55,180 bases of DNA from a bacterium (lineage in GTDB: Bacteria > Oederibacteriota > Muellerivitia > Muellerivitales > Muellerivitaceae), in NCBI GenBank assembly GCA_035549195.1, contig DASZRK010000069.1:1-55180 (forward strand). The letters are read 5' to 3'. The notes beneath the pieces were generated by a model. It was not told the DNA's origin and did not search any database. It worked only from the letters and a program-made list of their open reading frames with translations. Both the position numbers and the translations under genes were made by a program. This document shows positions 6,178 through 12,933 of this stretch, in pieces. How positions within the stretch are numbered: the stretch's first letter is position 1; every line of letters starts with the position of its first letter.

Positions 6178-7317
6178 TTACGAGATGTAATAATCGAGGG
6201 AATATTCCAAGGCCAGGATCACCTGCAGCACCGTACTGGCCGCCAAAAAGATCCCCTCCCGCCCGCTCCAACGCCGGGCCAGGAACGCGAAGAACGGGAA
6301 AAGGACCAGCGCGTAGCGGGAATAGGGGATCAGGTTGCCGCTGAGGGCGGGGACCAGCACCATGACCGCCAGGTAGACCCATTCGGCCCTTCCCATGGAA
6401 CGCCATCCCGCGACTAGGACCGTTAGTAACCCGAGGAACAGGACCCGGTTCAATAACGCGCACTCCAAGCCTATGTTCCCCTCTCCCAGGTTGAAGAAAC
6501 CGTGCAGGAAGACCCCCCAGGGTTGGAAGAAGTGGCCCACCGAGAAATTCCCCACGAAATATTTTTGGGCCGCAAAGGACGCAAAAGGATCCCCTGTCCA
6601 ATAACGCATGAGCCCCAGGTAGGTCAAGAATCCCAGGAGGATGCCACCCAAGGAAAAAGACGCGGCCCGTCGCCCGCCCGCCCGTCCCCGCTCCCAAAGG
6701 AGCACCATCAAGGGGGGTATCAACAGTATCCCCGTGGGCCGTGTCAAGGGAAGCAGGAAGGCGAAGAACAGGGCCGGCTTCCAATCCCCCCGGCGTGCAT
6801 GGAACCAAAGTCCACCGATCAGGCAAAGGAACAGGGATTCCGTATAGATGAGCCCCATGAAGAACGCGGTCGGGAAGGTGAGGATGAAAAGGCAGGCCAG
6901 GAAAGCCTCCCGTGCATCAAGCGTCTCCCGGAAAATGAGGAAAAGATAAGCCATCGCCCCGAAGGTCAAAAGATGAGAAATCAGCAACGCCGCCAGAAGG
7001 TCATTCCCGCCCAAAAGGCGACCCATGATCTTGATCAAAAAGGGGAATAAGGGATAAAAAGCATTGGCCATGTGCCCAGGGCGGTAGCCTTCCTGGGACA
7101 GGTAAAGATAGATCTGGCCGTCCCAGGTCTTGTAGTGGGTCCAAAGGTCGGGAGGCGCTTGAAAGGGATAGGTGAAATTGGCGTAGTAATTGGCGCTGTT
7201 GAAGGGGAACAGGAAGGCCCCCGCCGCGATCACCAGCAGGACCAAAACCTTCAAAACCGCCGTCAAGAAGAGCAGGTTCTTCAGGTTATAGCGCGCGTCG
7301 CCCTTTATCCTTTCCAA
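6178..7317 (-). CDS. PIG-V-like (GT-C) mannosyltransferase family membrane protein
   Basis: 379 residues with about eight to ten membrane segments. Motifs fit the PIG-V/GT-C family: an Asp-containing luminal-type motif (HYKTWDGQIYLYLSQEGY, about 61-78), AFYPLFPFLIK and IYTESLFL, followed by TRPTGILL. Such enzymes use polyprenyl-phosphate sugars to glycosylate lipids or proteins on the outer face of the membrane. The start is a TTG at 7317 inside the end of rluD (13-base overlap), so translation is probably coupled to it. The acceptor is unknown. Confidence 0.75.
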   Translation of the reverse strand: MERIKGDARYNLKNLLFLTAVLKVLVLLVIAAGAFLFPFNSANYYANFTYPFQAPPDLWTHYKTWDGQIYLYLSQEGYRPGHMANAFYPLFPFLIKIMGRLLGGNDLLAALLISHLLTFGAMAYLFLIFRETLDAREAFLACLFILTFPTAFFMGLIYTESLFLCLIGGLWFHARRGDWKPALFFAFLLPLTRPTGILLIPPLMVLLWERGRAGGRRAASFSLGGILLGFLTYLGLMRYWTGDPFASFAAQKYFVGNFSVGHFFQPWGVFLHGFFNLGEGNIGLECALLNRVLFLGLLTVLVAGWRSMGRAEWVYLAVMVLVPALSGNLIPYSRYALVLFPFFAFLARRWSGREGIFLAASTVLQVILALEYSLDYYIS

Positions 7318-8270
7318 ACCACATCCTTCCAGACGGGGGCCGCGAGCCCCAAGGCTTGGACCGCTGCCGTGAGGTCCTCCGGCGGAGGGGCGAAAAAGGA
7401 CAGGGCCTTCCCCGTCTTCGGATGCTGGAAACTCAGCCGGAAGGCATGGAGCATCTGGCGCCCAAAACCCCCATGGGAGGAGCCATAGACGACGTCCCCC
7501 AGGATGGGATGATGGATGAACTGGAGGTGCACCCGGATCTGGTGGGTGCGTCCGGTCTCCAACTTCAAGTGGAGCAGGCTGGCCTCGTCGTTGGCGGACA
7601 AAGGGACAAAATGGGTCTTGGCCGACTTGCCGCCTTCGGCTTGGACCGCCATCTTCTTGCGGGCCGAGACGTGCCGCCCAATGGCCGCGTCGATCAGGCC
7701 CGGTTCAGTGACCTTGCCTTTGACCAAACCCAGATATTCCCGCGACATCTGCCGGTAGCGGATCTGCTTGACCAGGGATCGGTAGGCCAGGTCGGTCTTG
7801 GCGACCGCCAGGAGCCCTGAGGTGTCCTTATCCAGGCGGTGTACCAGGCCCGGCCTTTGGACCCCGCCGACCCCCGCGATCTCGGGGCAATGGGCTACCA
7901 GGGCATTGATCAGGGTGGAATCGGGGTTCCCCGCCCCGGGATGGACCACCAGTCCCGCGGGCTTGTTGAGCACCAGCAAATGGTCGTCCTCGAACACGAT
8001 ATCCAGTGGCAGGGATTGAGCCGGGATCTCGGAGGGTTTGGAAGCGGGGATGACCACCCGGAAGGCTTGGCCCTCGGTGACGGGCAGGCTGGCCTTGAGC
8101 GGCTTGGCGGCGAAGAGGGGCGTTACGTGGCCTTCCTTGATGAGGTTCTGCACTTGGTTTCGAGAAAAGGAAGGCAGGTGGGAAGCCAGGAAGACATCGA
8201 GCCTTTGGCCTCCTTCGCCGGCCTGGACGGTCCAGTTATTGGATTGGGCGCTGAGGGACGAGGGTTCCAT
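7305..8270 (-). CDS. rluD: RluA/RluD-family 23S rRNA pseudouridine synthase
   Basis: 321 residues. An N-terminal S4 RNA-binding domain (about 15-75, QRLDVFLAS) is followed by the catalytic domain with HRLDKDTSG at 144-152, where Asp147 is the catalytic aspartate. GRTHQIRVHL and HAFRLSF are further family signatures. It isomerises uridines in large-subunit rRNA; the S4 domain favours RluD over RluA or RluC, but this is not certain. ATG at 8270 has no ribosome binding site. Instead TACAAT (8282-8277) lies six bases before it, suggesting a leaderless transcript. It lies 19 bases after lgt. Confidence 0.88.
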   Translation of the reverse strand: MEPSSLSAQSNNWTVQAGEGGQRLDVFLASHLPSFSRNQVQNLIKEGHVTPLFAAKPLKASLPVTEGQAFRVVIPASKPSEIPAQSLPLDIVFEDDHLLVLNKPAGLVVHPGAGNPDSTLINALVAHCPEIAGVGGVQRPGLVHRLDKDTSGLLAVAKTDLAYRSLVKQIRYRQMSREYLGLVKGKVTEPGLIDAAIGRHVSARKKMAVQAEGGKSAKTHFVPLSANDEASLLHLKLETGRTHQIRVHLQFIHHPILGDVVYGSSHGGFGRQMLHAFRLSFQHPKTGKALSFFAPPPEDLTAAVQALGLAAPVWKDVVWKG

Positions 8271-8289: not shown

Positions 8290-9111
8290 TCAGGCGAGGC
8301 TTTTGCCCTTATTGGCCTTGAACAGGATCCAAACGATGGCCAGCAGGGACAAGGCGATGAGGATGCCGCTGACCGCCTGGGACGCCGAGTTGAAGATCAC
8401 CAGGTAGTGTTTGTTCCAATCGCGCCGCCAGAACTCGATGACCAGGCGTAGGGTGCCGTAAAGCAGGCCATAGAGGGCGATGGACAATCCCGGGAAGCGC
8501 ATGATCCAACGACGCAGCAAGAGCAGGAGGAAGAACAAGACCAGGTCCCCCGCCAGTTCCCAAAGCTGGGTCGGCAGGTGCGGATGGTCGTCCGGGGCGC
8601 CCGGGAAGATCCATCCATGGCCCCAATCCAGGAAACCGCTGTGGGGTTCGGCCACGTTCCCGTAACAGCAACCGTTGAGGAAACAACCCACCCGACCGAC
8701 GGCCTGTCCCAGGAGGATGTAGGGCGCCACCAGGTCCAGGCAACGGACCGCCGGCCACTTCTCATGGCGCACCCAGACCAAGGCCCCGGCCACCGCGCCG
8801 AAAAAGCCGCCGTAATAGACCAGCCCGCCTTCCCAGACCTTGATCGCGTCCAACCAATGGCCGTTCTGGAATTCGGTGTAGTTCTCCAGGACATAGAAGA
8901 TTCGGGCGCCCACGATGGAGGAAAGGATGACCACCACTCCCAGGTCGAAGGCCTTCTGGAAACCCTGGTGGAAGGTCAGCCCCAGGTCGGGGGCGATATA
9001 TTTCCCGGTGTCCCGGGCGAAGAGGTAGATGCTGAAACCCAGCGCCACCGCCAGGCAGAGGCCGTAGGAATAGAAGTGGAGGGGCCCGATCGAGCCCAGG
9101 ACGGGATACAT
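8290..9111 (-). CDS. lgt: Prolipoprotein diacylglyceryl transferase
   Basis: 273 residues, integral inner-membrane enzyme that moves diacylglycerol from phosphatidylglycerol to the lipobox cysteine, the first step of lipoprotein maturation. It carries the Lgt signature (VGRVGCFLNGCCYG) and the N-terminal SYGLCLAVA segment, with about seven membrane helices. I chose ATG at 9111, which overlaps the lspA stop as TGATG and is preceded by AAAGGAG at ideal spacing. An upstream in-frame start at 9144 adds 11 non-conserved residues. It lies directly downstream of the two lspA genes, so two steps of the same pathway are co-transcribed. Confidence 0.93.
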   Translation of the reverse strand: MYPVLGSIGPLHFYSYGLCLAVALGFSIYLFARDTGKYIAPDLGLTFHQGFQKAFDLGVVVILSSIVGARIFYVLENYTEFQNGHWLDAIKVWEGGLVYYGGFFGAVAGALVWVRHEKWPAVRCLDLVAPYILLGQAVGRVGCFLNGCCYGNVAEPHSGFLDWGHGWIFPGAPDDHPHLPTQLWELAGDLVLFFLLLLLRRWIMRFPGLSIALYGLLYGTLRLVIEFWRRDWNKHYLVIFNSASQAVSGILIALSLLAIVWILFKANKGKSLA

Positions 9112-9593
9112 CAGCGGCTCCTTTGCGGCGGGCGTTCCCGCCAATAGGTGAGGATCAACAGGGCCAACCCGACGGTGATGCAGGAATCAGCGACATTGAA
9201 AATATACGGGAACCACTGGTGTTGATGGAAGCGCACGTCGATGAAATCCACGACCTGCCGGTAAACCACCCGGTCCACGAAATTGCCCATGGCGCCTCCC
9301 CAAATGAGCCCTAGGGCGAAACGTTGGAGCACCTTCTCCTTCGGGATGAAACGTTGGAAGGCATAGACCACGACCCCCGCCCCCAGGGTGATGATAAGAA
9401 AAAAAGGGACCCTGGCCCAGGCGGGAGTATTGGCCATGAAGCCAAAGGCCGCGCCGGGGTTCTGGATATGGGTGAAGTAAAGGTATCCGGGGATGACCGT
9501 CACGGAACGGCCCAGCTCTAAGTGGTGAAGGACAAGGAATTTGGTGAACTGGTCGGCCAGGAGGGCGGCGATGGAAACGTCCCGCAGCCTCAT
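9111..9593 (-). CDS. lspA: Lipoprotein signal peptidase II, copy 2 of tandem pair
   Basis: 160 residues, four-helix membrane aspartic peptidase that removes the signal peptide from diacylglyceryl-modified prolipoproteins. Family motifs are intact: ADQFTKF (13-19), NPGAAFGF (45-52), GNFVDR with Asp107, and FNVADSCI with Asp136, the two catalytic aspartates. ATG at 9593 overlaps the stop of the upstream copy (ATGA) and fits the family N-terminus; longer in-frame extensions run into the neighbour. It is roughly 60% identical by eye to the adjacent copy over 130 residues, so the pair arose by duplication or by gain of a close homologue. Confidence 0.92.
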   Translation of the reverse strand: MRLRDVSIAALLADQFTKFLVLHHLELGRSVTVIPGYLYFTHIQNPGAAFGFMANTPAWARVPFFLIITLGAGVVVYAFQRFIPKEKVLQRFALGLIWGGAMGNFVDRVVYRQVVDFIDVRFHQHQWFPYIFNVADSCITVGLALLILTYWRERPPQRSR

Positions 9594-10075
9594 GCGGAGG
9601 CTTTCTGCCGCCGACTGGAAAGGAACTCGTACAGGAGATAACCCAGGCCGATGGTGATACAGGCGTCCGCCAGGTTGAAGATGTAGGGGAACCATTGATA
9701 GTCCTCGAAACGCATGTCGATGAAATCCACCACTTTGCCGTAGAGCACGCGGTCCACCAGGTTGCCCAAAGCCCCGCCCCAGACCAGCCCCAGGGCCACC
9801 CGGGTCGCCCAGCGGTCATGTGGAAGCATCCTCTGATACATATAGACGATGGCAGTAGCCCCCAAAGTGGCGACAATAAAGAGGGGGATCCGCACGAGGG
9901 CATCCATCTGGGCCATGAAGCCGAAGGCGGACCCCGGGTTCTGGGTATAGGTGAAGTAGAGGTATTTGGGCAGGAGCGGCACGGACTCGTTGAGTTCCAT
10001 CGTCCGGAGGACCATGAACTTGGTCAATTGGTCCAAGGAAAGGACCAAGAGGGAGACCCCCGCCAGGGCCATCAT
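9590..10075 (-). CDS. lspA: Lipoprotein signal peptidase II, copy 1 of tandem pair
   Basis: 161 residues with the same four-helix architecture and all LspA motifs: LDQLTKF (14-20), NPGSAFGF (46-53), GNLVDR with Asp108, and FNLADACI with Asp137. The start ATG at 10075 overlaps the ileS stop (ATGA), as in the common ileS–lspA arrangement, so this is probably the ancestral position. It ends in a four-base overlap with the second lspA. Both copies keep their catalytic residues. The loop between helices 1 and 2 and the C-terminal tail differ most. Confidence 0.92.
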   Translation of the reverse strand: MMALAGVSLLVLSLDQLTKFMVLRTMELNESVPLLPKYLYFTYTQNPGSAFGFMAQMDALVRIPLFIVATLGATAIVYMYQRMLPHDRWATRVALGLVWGGALGNLVDRVLYGKVVDFIDMRFEDYQWFPYIFNLADACITIGLGYLLYEFLSSRRQKASA

Positions 10076-12933
10076 CCCTGGGCCGCCATGGCCGGGTGGA
10101 CCTTCACGACAGGCGCACAGCGGTGGCAAAGATCGGCGAGTTCCTTGTCCATCTGCCCGGCCGGATAGTAGTTCCAGCAACGGGCGCACTTAACACCATC
10201 GGATTTACGAGGATCGACATCGATTGCGCTACCCATTTCTTTTCCGCGAAATGCCGACTCTGGAGCTTGCCCAGATTTAAAATCAACTTTCGAAACCAAA
10301 AAGAAATAGCGAAGATTCTCCTTGTGCTTTTCAAGTGCGGCTCTAGTTTTCTCATGGGCAAAATCAACATAGAGATCCACCTCCGCCTCCAAAGAACTGC
10401 CGATCACTTTCGATTGACGGAGCCCTTCGAGGGACTTAGAAACAACCCTTTTTGCTTCCAATATTTGTTCCCACTCGTCCAGAAGCACACCGTCCGAATT
10501 ATATTCAGCGGATGGCCATTTAGACTGAAACACGCTTTTTTCATTTTGGCCTTTGAAAGAATCCGGAAGCGATTGCCAGATTTCTTCTGCCGTGAACGAA
10601 AGTATCGGTGCAATTACAACCACATAACTTTTTAATATGTCGTACAAAACAGTTTGAGCTGCACGACGCTCTTTTGAATCAGAAGCAAAGGTATAGAGCC
10701 TATCTTTTAGAATGTCGAAATAACCAGCGCTGAGGGTCACGGAAAAAAATGCATCCACGACATGGAATACACGAGTAAAGCTGTATTCGTCATACGCCTT
10801 TTTAAGAACACCCAAATTACTTGCAGCCCATGTCCAAGCCCAACGATCAACCGAAAGAAAATCCTTTTCATTCACCCTATTTTTCGCGGGGTCGAAATCC
10901 GACAAATTCCCCAGGATGAAACGGAAGGTATTACGGATACGGCGATAGGCCTCGGACATACGATTGAGCATCTCCTCACTGATGGAGACGTCCTCGGTGT
11001 AGTCCTCGGAGGAGACCCAGAGCCTCAACACATCGGCCCCATATTTCTTGATCATGTCCTGCGGGTCGATGACGTTCCCCAGGCTCTTGTGCATGGCCTT
11101 GCCGTTCGCATCCAGGACCCAGCCATGGGTGAGCACTTGGGTGAAGGGAGCCTTGCCCTTCAGGGCCATCCCGGTCCAAAGGGCGTGTTGAAACCAACCC
11201 CGGTGCTGGTCGCCACCTTCTAAATAGAGGACCTGGGCGTCCTTCTTGGCGATGGAGGCCTTCAATTCGGGCCGTTGGTCCATGACCGCGAAGTGGGAGC
11301 TTCCGGATTCGAACCAGACGTCCAGGATGTCCTCTTCCTTCACGAACTCGGCGGAACCGCAGGAACATTGGAACCCGGAAGGCAGGACGTCGGCGGCCTG
11401 GTGTTGGAACCAGCCGTCGATCCCCTCTTTTTCGATCAGCTTGACGGTCGCGTCCAAGACCTTCGCGTCGGCCACCGGCACACCACAGGTCTTGCAATAG
11501 AGGACCGCGATAGGGACACCCCAAGCACGTTGGCGGGAAATGCACCAGTCGGTACGGCCTTCGACCATGTTCCGGATGCGGTCCTGGCCCCAGGCCGGGA
11601 TCCATCCCTGGGTCTTGCCGATCTCCCCGATGGCATCCAGGCACTTCTTGCGCAGGTCCTTGTGGTCCAAAGCGATGAACCATTGGGCAGTGGCCCGGAA
11701 AATGATGGGGTTCTTGGAGCGCCAGCAATGGGGGTAGCTATGTTTGATCTTCTGAACTGAAAGCAGTCGGCCCAACCCCTTCAACTGGTCGACGATCTTT
11801 GGGTTGGCCTCCCACACGCTCTGCCCCTGGTATTCGGGCACTCGGGCGTCATAGCGTCCGGCTTCGTTCACGGGCGAATAGACCGGCAGGTTGTATTTGA
11901 GACCGATCTCATAGTCTTCCCGGCCATGCCCGGGGGCGGTATGGACCAATCCGGTCCCGGTATCGGCCGTGACATGGGTCCCGACCATGACAAGCGAGTC
12001 CTGGTCCAGGAATGGATGGCGGGCCAAGGCCCGGTCGAGCTTTTCACCCTTCACCTCTTCCAGGACCTTGTACTCCCCTTCTTTCCAGCCGCAAGCCTCG
12101 GCCACCTGGGACAAGAGCACCTTGGCCAGGATATAGACCTGGTCGCCCTTCTGGACGGTCACATATTCAAAGTCAGGATGGACTGAGATCCCCAGATTGG
12201 CGGGGAGGGTCCAAGGGGTCGTCGTCCAGATCAGGAAGGACAGGTTCGTCCGGGGCGTCTTGGGGAAAACCCCGTCTGGCAGTTGCTTGGCCGGAAAGGC
12301 AACAGTCACGGACAAGGATTCATGGTCGGCGTATTCGACCTCGGCTTCCGCCAGGGCGGTCTGACAGACCGGGCACCAGTGAATGGGCCTCAAGCGACGT
12401 TCCACATAACCTTGGGAAAGTAGTTGGGTCAGGGCCTTGACCAGGGAAAGCTCATAGGCCGGGTCCATGGTCATATAAGGATGGTCGAAGTCGCCGAAGA
12501 TCCCCAGGCGCTTGAACTCGTCCCTTTGGCGGTCCAGGAACTTTTCGGCGTATTGGCGGCATTCCTTGCGGATCTCCACCTTGGACATGCTCTTGGCCTT
12601 GGAGCCGAGCTTCTCCATGACCTTATGCTCAATGGGCATCCCGTGGCAGTCCCAACCGGGAACATAGGGCGTGTCAAAGCCCTGGAGGGCCTTGTACTTC
12701 ACGATGATGTCCTTGAGGACCTTGTTCAGGGCGTGGCCCATGTGGATGTCGCCATTGGCGAAAGGAGGACCGTCATGAAGGACATAGGCGGGCGCGTCCG
12801 GGCGTTTGAAGGCGCCCTTGTGGAAACCCCATTGTTCCCAAAGCTTCGCCCGTTCCGGCTCCGTCTGGGGCAGGTTGGCCTTCATGGGGAAGGAGGTCTG
12901 GGTGATGTTGAGGGTGGACTTGTATTCGGCCAT
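10072..12933 (-). CDS. ileS: Isoleucyl-tRNA synthetase
   Basis: 953-residue class I synthetase charging tRNA-Ile. The HIGH motif reads HMGH (64-67). The KMSKS loop reads AMHKS (about 613-617), with the second Lys of the motif kept. The CP1 editing domain lies at about 190-400 (TWTLPANLG region and the TAPGHG motif). The C-terminus has a zinc-ribbon (CARCWNYYP then LCHRC). ATG at 12933 has AGGTGAAAA upstream. Residues about 678-913 are encoded by DNA much richer in A+T than the rest of the gene (10195-10900). The reading frame is intact. It heads the ileS–lspA–lspA–lgt run. Confidence 0.95.
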   Translation of the reverse strand: MAEYKSTLNITQTSFPMKANLPQTEPERAKLWEQWGFHKGAFKRPDAPAYVLHDGPPFANGDIHMGHALNKVLKDIIVKYKALQGFDTPYVPGWDCHGMPIEHKVMEKLGSKAKSMSKVEIRKECRQYAEKFLDRQRDEFKRLGIFGDFDHPYMTMDPAYELSLVKALTQLLSQGYVERRLRPIHWCPVCQTALAEAEVEYADHESLSVTVAFPAKQLPDGVFPKTPRTNLSFLIWTTTPWTLPANLGISVHPDFEYVTVQKGDQVYILAKVLLSQVAEACGWKEGEYKVLEEVKGEKLDRALARHPFLDQDSLVMVGTHVTADTGTGLVHTAPGHGREDYEIGLKYNLPVYSPVNEAGRYDARVPEYQGQSVWEANPKIVDQLKGLGRLLSVQKIKHSYPHCWRSKNPIIFRATAQWFIALDHKDLRKKCLDAIGEIGKTQGWIPAWGQDRIRNMVEGRTDWCISRQRAWGVPIAVLYCKTCGVPVADAKVLDATVKLIEKEGIDGWFQHQAADVLPSGFQCSCGSAEFVKEEDILDVWFESGSSHFAVMDQRPELKASIAKKDAQVLYLEGGDQHRGWFQHALWTGMALKGKAPFTQVLTHGWVLDANGKAMHKSLGNVIDPQDMIKKYGADVLRLWVSSEDYTEDVSISEEMLNRMSEAYRRIRNTFRFILGNLSDFDPAKNRVNEKDFLSVDRWAWTWAASNLGVLKKAYDEYSFTRVFHVVDAFFSVTLSAGYFDILKDRLYTFASDSKERRAAQTVLYDILKSYVVVIAPILSFTAEEIWQSLPDSFKGQNEKSVFQSKWPSAEYNSDGVLLDEWEQILEAKRVVSKSLEGLRQSKVIGSSLEAEVDLYVDFAHEKTRAALEKHKENLRYFFLVSKVDFKSGQAPESAFRGKEMGSAIDVDPRKSDGVKCARCWNYYPAGQMDKELADLCHRCAPVVKVHPAMAAQG
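10195..10900 (-). other. AT-rich patch inside ileS
   Basis: Codon choice and base composition shift sharply inside this stretch. A sample line at 10621-10680 is 22/60 G+C, while 12721-12780 in the same gene is about 35/60. It covers the anticodon-binding domain and linker up to the zinc ribbon. Both borders are abrupt, with GC-rich DNA resuming on each side. This is what a recombined segment from a lower-GC donor would look like, although relaxed codon use is an alternative. Confidence 0.6.

Follow-up and report, generated by a model that had tools for sequence, protein, structure and literature searches.

The genes considered here lie on the minus strand of the window (the whole stretch of DNA analysed, 55,180 nucleotides), in the order ileS, lspA1, lspA2, lgt and an rluD-type gene (Table 1). 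The source genome is a MAG of 3.2 Mb and 97.9% completeness, whose named nearest relatives are candidate division FCPU426 MAGs, and a search of its entire 3.2 Mb found no third lspA. The original prediction of two intact lspA genes in tandem between ileS and lgt is confirmed, both genes being full-length, on the minus strand and where it had placed them. The ATGA joins that it described are true of the ileS/lspA1 and lspA1/lspA2 junctions; the lspA2/lgt junction is a TGATG overlap in the source genome and varies among the family genomes. Elsewhere in the window, positions 109-1228 form a low-complexity stretch in which several frames are open on both strands, with dipeptide-like simple repeats in the translations.

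Table 1. Features of the tandem lspA locus, in window coordinates
Feature	Position	Strand	Evidence or remark
ileS, isoleucyl-tRNA synthetase, 953 aa, first gene of the block	10072..12933	-	PF00133, 432 bits
ATGA overlap, ileS stop / lspA1 start	10072..10075	-	4-base overlap kept in 7/7 family genomes
lspA1, signal peptidase II copy 1, 161 aa, catalytic Asp117 and Asp137	9590..10075	-	PF01252, TIGR00077
ATGA overlap, lspA1 stop / lspA2 start	9590..9593	-	4-base overlap in 7/7 family genomes; GTGA in G007
lspA2, signal peptidase II copy 2, 160 aa, catalytic Asp116 and Asp136	9111..9593	-	PF01252, TIGR00077
LspA2 Arg112 codon (S. aureus Gly114), marker of the lspA2 clade	9258..9260	-	residue comparison
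lgt, prolipoprotein diacylglyceryl transferase, 274 aa, single copy	8290..9114	-	PF01790, 179.2 bits
rluD-type pseudouridine synthase gene, named by reading	7305..8270	-	synteny: follows lgt in the family and several phylum members

Judging from family matches, conserved residues and predicted folds, both copies look enzymatically active. First of all, lspA1 and lspA2 score 136.2 and 141.8 bits against PF01252 (cut-off 25), and 119.3 and 108.8 against the TIGR00077 lspA equivalog (cut-off 73.95). Second, 14 highly conserved LspA residues have been named for S. aureus, from Asp21 to Asp136 and with Asp118 and Asp136 as the catalytic pair (PMC6952399), and all 14 are found in both copies throughout the seven family genomes; the two catalytic aspartates predicted for each copy are thus present, together with the other 12 conserved residues. 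Third, the AlphaFold2 models (mean pLDDT 91.7 for LspA1 and 89.4 for LspA2), whose input alignments contain other LspA proteins and which thus speak for fold compatibility and are not independent proof, both show four long helices and beta-cradle strands, in agreement with the LspA architecture of four transmembrane helices, a beta-cradle and an extracytoplasmic loop. Their best structure match is P. aeruginosa LspA (5DIR; TM 0.83 for the LspA1 model and 0.84 for the LspA2 model); S. aureus LspA (6RYO/6RYP) is also matched by both models, and the structure search with the two models returned no other structure at a meaningful E-value.

The ileS-lspA1-lspA2 block recurs in six of the seven other genomes of the family Muellerivitaceae; the remaining one is 65% complete, and neither lspA nor lgt was recovered from it. 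The original prediction had considered that one copy might prove inactive or absent from close relatives; both are intact, and the pair occurs in every family genome that yields the locus. lgt directly follows lspA2 in six of the seven pair-bearing genomes, the source included, and in the seventh, G006, the contig ends past lspA2 and lgt begins another contig. The sister family, represented by one genome (G008), has a single lspA between ileS and lgt, and no tandem pair outside the family was found among 33 genomes of the phylum with an LspA match. Three genomes from other families of the phylum carry a second, very divergent and unlinked LspA with a long tree branch (G019, L047; G023, L049; G037, L050). 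Further afield, adjacent lspA pairs were absent from about 260 genomes from other groups, a sample of 120 Pseudomonadota, 61 Bacillota, 61 Bacteroidota and the 24 genomes behind other loci (3 of them shared with the samples), which covers these groups only, does not include Myxococcota and is not a census. Two to three lspA copies over the cut-off occur in seven Pseudomonadota, one Bacillota, seven Bacteroidota and two genomes of the other-loci set, never adjacent to one another.

Two side observations concern G006. This genome has a third LspA on contig C203 (L132:13-522, minus strand), of the lspA2 type, with all 14 conserved residues and the same Arg as the LspA2 of the tandem pair. It is placed at the contig end, separated by about 85 bases from a putative lipoprotein gene upstream of it (608-1303, lipobox LGGC), and may be a peptidase dedicated to that lipoprotein; no homologue of this lipoprotein was found in nine relatives, and the arrangement is thus uninformative on the tandem pair. 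In addition, Centralia_MAG_561, labelled Proteobacteria (L055, L056), has a contig layout identical to that of G006, and its public label is probably wrong.

The origin of the pair was addressed with a tree of 67 LspA proteins. In the full tree, the seven lspA1 form one clade (98/96), the eight lspA2-type sequences form another (100/98), and the two clades are sisters (93/72); with the longest branches removed, the joint clade receives 99/87 and the paralog clades 97/94 and 99/96. The same pairs recur inside both paralog clades: G001 with G005, and G002 with G007, the latter pair next to G006. Because the two sister clades have matching inner grouping, the trees show a single tandem duplication of an ancestral lspA in the ileS-lspA-lgt block, older than the split among the sampled genera of the family. 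In the AU test, a tree in which lspA1 or lspA2 is constrained to join the single gene of the sister family is disfavoured, though just short of significance (p 0.065 each); the duplication may nonetheless predate the split from the sister family, with subsequent loss in the latter. The phylogeny, proposed as the way to tell duplication from gain, thus favours duplication, and the gain of one copy from outside is rejected, as the two copies are more closely related to each other than to any other LspA in the tree.

In the source genome, LspA1 and LspA2 are identical at 87 of 159 positions by blastp, 55% and thus below the 60% first estimated by eye. Across the family genomes, paralogs within one genome are 42-54% identical, compared with an average of 64-65% between orthologs. 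Two hotspots of difference had been named, the loop that follows helix 1 and the tail. The loop shows no excess, with 11 of 22 sites differing (50%, compared with 45% overall); the C-terminal tail, on the other hand, is the most divergent part (7 of 9 sites, P 0.047 uncorrected). Twelve alignment columns separate the paralogs completely, 10 inside the proteins and 2 in the N-terminal flank outside them. The clearest is the column of S. aureus Gly114, which holds Gly in 7/7 lspA1, Arg in 8/8 lspA2 and Gly in 97 of 110 other LspA, a comparison set rich in Paenibacillus and in the source phylum; the single other Arg among these 110 adjoins an alignment gap. At this most conserved of the diverged positions, residue comparison thus shows LspA1 as the copy retaining the ancestral Gly and LspA2 as the one that gained a fixed Arg. 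In the LspA2 model, Arg112 sits in the turn between a helix (88-111) and a strand (114-122) that bears the catalytic Asp116. The other fixed differences, in S. aureus numbering, fall in the beta-cradle (39, 122, 126), the helix 2-3 loop (81), helix 3 (94, 104) and helix 4 (145, 148, 150). According to a published proposal, the part of the substrate that follows the cleavage site is held by the beta-cradle (PMC6952399).

Purifying selection acts on both copies. In the three genome pairs for which dS is usable, lspA1 has a pairwise dN/dS of 0.17-0.21 and lspA2 one of 0.10-0.12, close to the values of ileS (about 0.10) and lgt (0.16). Together with the paralog-specific fixed residues, this selection fits a division of labour. 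Of the two functions originally suggested for the pair, divided substrates and globomycin resistance, the first is partly supported and the second is unsupported. The specialisation may be slight, given that only 12 columns separate the paralogs completely, and dosage combined with drift would likewise leave some fixed differences.

We favour, at a probability of roughly 0.55, two co-expressed housekeeping signal peptidases II whose substrates are partly divided. Lgt acts immediately before LspA in the lipoprotein pathway; signal peptidases II as a family cut diacylglyceryl-modified prolipoproteins ahead of the Cys and are inhibited by globomycin. Lgt and Lnt are both found in the family and Lgt is single-copy, so that LspA is the only doubled step. 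The ancestral single lspA duplicated in tandem once, both copies remaining enzymatically complete ever since; as we envisage it, lspA1 and lspA2 would be carried on one mRNA and translationally coupled through the observed ATGA overlaps. LspA2 acquired its fixed Arg between helix 3 and the beta-cradle strand of the first catalytic Asp, along with the changes in the beta-cradle and in helices 3 and 4. Both enzymes would cleave lipoproteins made ready by Lgt, LspA2 having presumably shifted to a different subset; given the proposed role of the beta-cradle in holding the substrate just past the cleavage site, such a shift in LspA2 seems the likeliest. A stronger form of this proposal, in which the Gly-to-Arg change beside the beta-cradle specialised LspA2 for its own substrate set, one operon thus supplying two dedicated peptidases, we put forward only tentatively.

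Divided substrates rank above plain dosage, which we regard as the somewhat unlikely but most serious competitor. Here the two enzymes would be interchangeable, the coupled genes would simply supply enough LspA, and the differences between them would be neutral. The presumed single operon, the predicted coupling of the starts and the complete catalytic residues of both copies agree with dosage, as does a precedent, since the tandem lspA1 and lspA2 of Myxococcus xanthus are both proposed as housekeeping enzymes in a review (PMC8689077). It sits poorly, however, with paralogs that are less alike within a genome than orthologs are between genomes, and with the replacement, and subsequent fixation in every lspA2, of a Gly that most other LspA share. 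Nor does the lipoprotein load appear exceptional: a crude survey found a lipobox in 7 of 312 genes in 317 kb of the source genome (about 2%), and at most one doubtful case among 131 genes (155 kb) in the sister-family genome, samples too small to measure load or to distinguish two lipobox classes. Moreover, LspA overexpression is poorly tolerated by E. coli (PMC7482066).

Protection from a natural LspA inhibitor of the globomycin or myxovirescin type, by target duplication or an insensitive second copy, is improbable. Extra lspA copies are described in globomycin and myxovirescin producers in the same review (PMC8689077), and lspA amplification makes E. coli resistant to a globomycin analogue (PMC7482066). 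Such inhibitor-selected amplifications are unstable (PMC7482066), however, whereas the tandem pair is ancient; the conserved inhibitor-contacting residues are identical in both copies, globomycin-binding residues being unchanged in each, which argues against the suggestion that one copy resists globomycin; and the pair sits in a housekeeping block, outside any biosynthetic cluster. No NRPS condensation domain was found in the source genome (G000) or in the searched family genomes other than G006, and the source organism is thus not a plausible globomycin producer; with this lack and the housekeeping neighbourhood, a self-resistance LspA is rejected. The exception, G006, has NRPS condensation domains on contig C109 (loci L142-L144), one match containing an internal TGA. 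Still less probable is that one copy has become a non-peptidase partner or regulator of the other copy or of Lgt: the unusual LspA2 Arg beside the beta-cradle and the strict adjacency of the genes might suggest it, but every copy in both clades keeps the catalytic Asp pair and the other conserved residues, and both copies are under strong purifying selection. An assembly artefact or a recent, transient duplication can be dismissed, as it has in its favour only that the genome is a MAG and runs against a pair found in the source and six other family genomes, with copies 42-54% identical and falling into two reciprocal clades.

The closest known parallel is in M. xanthus, whose lgt operon contains lspA1 and lspA2 in tandem (Xiao and Wall 2014, cited in the review, PMC8689077); according to the same review, all four LspA of this species showed activity in E. 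coli without lpp. The FCPU426-family pair likewise consists of two adjacent lspA genes next to lgt; M. xanthus, on the other hand, belongs to the Myxococcota, a different phylum, and carries two further copies, lspA3 and lspA4, in its myxovirescin cluster. In our tree, which is without M. xanthus LspA, the two FCPU426 paralog clades are sisters within the phylum, suggesting a duplication that was probably independent of the M. xanthus pair. The family also resembles M. xanthus lspA3/lspA4, the second lspA of Streptomyces hagronensis and plasmid-borne lspA in having a second LspA per genome, but those extra copies stand apart from the housekeeping copy, in biosynthetic clusters or on mobile elements (they are common on plasmids). 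With single-copy housekeeping LspA (TIGR00077, PF01252; solved structures 5DIR of P. aeruginosa and 6RYO of S. aureus), length, fold, the 14 conserved residues and the ileS-lspA neighbourhood are shared; the family differs in having two copies, and in the Arg of LspA2 that replaces the usual Gly.

LspA, an antibiotic target, is regarded as one promiscuous enzyme. The arrangement described here is already known from Myxococcus; what is new is a further, apparently independent case in an uncultured phylum, with a clade-defining residue of its own. With so close a precedent, and with the functional division predicted only, the finding is a modest curiosity. Nevertheless, a pair of diverged, complete copies kept for so long would offer a natural test of the determinants of substrate choice in LspA, with one clear candidate residue.
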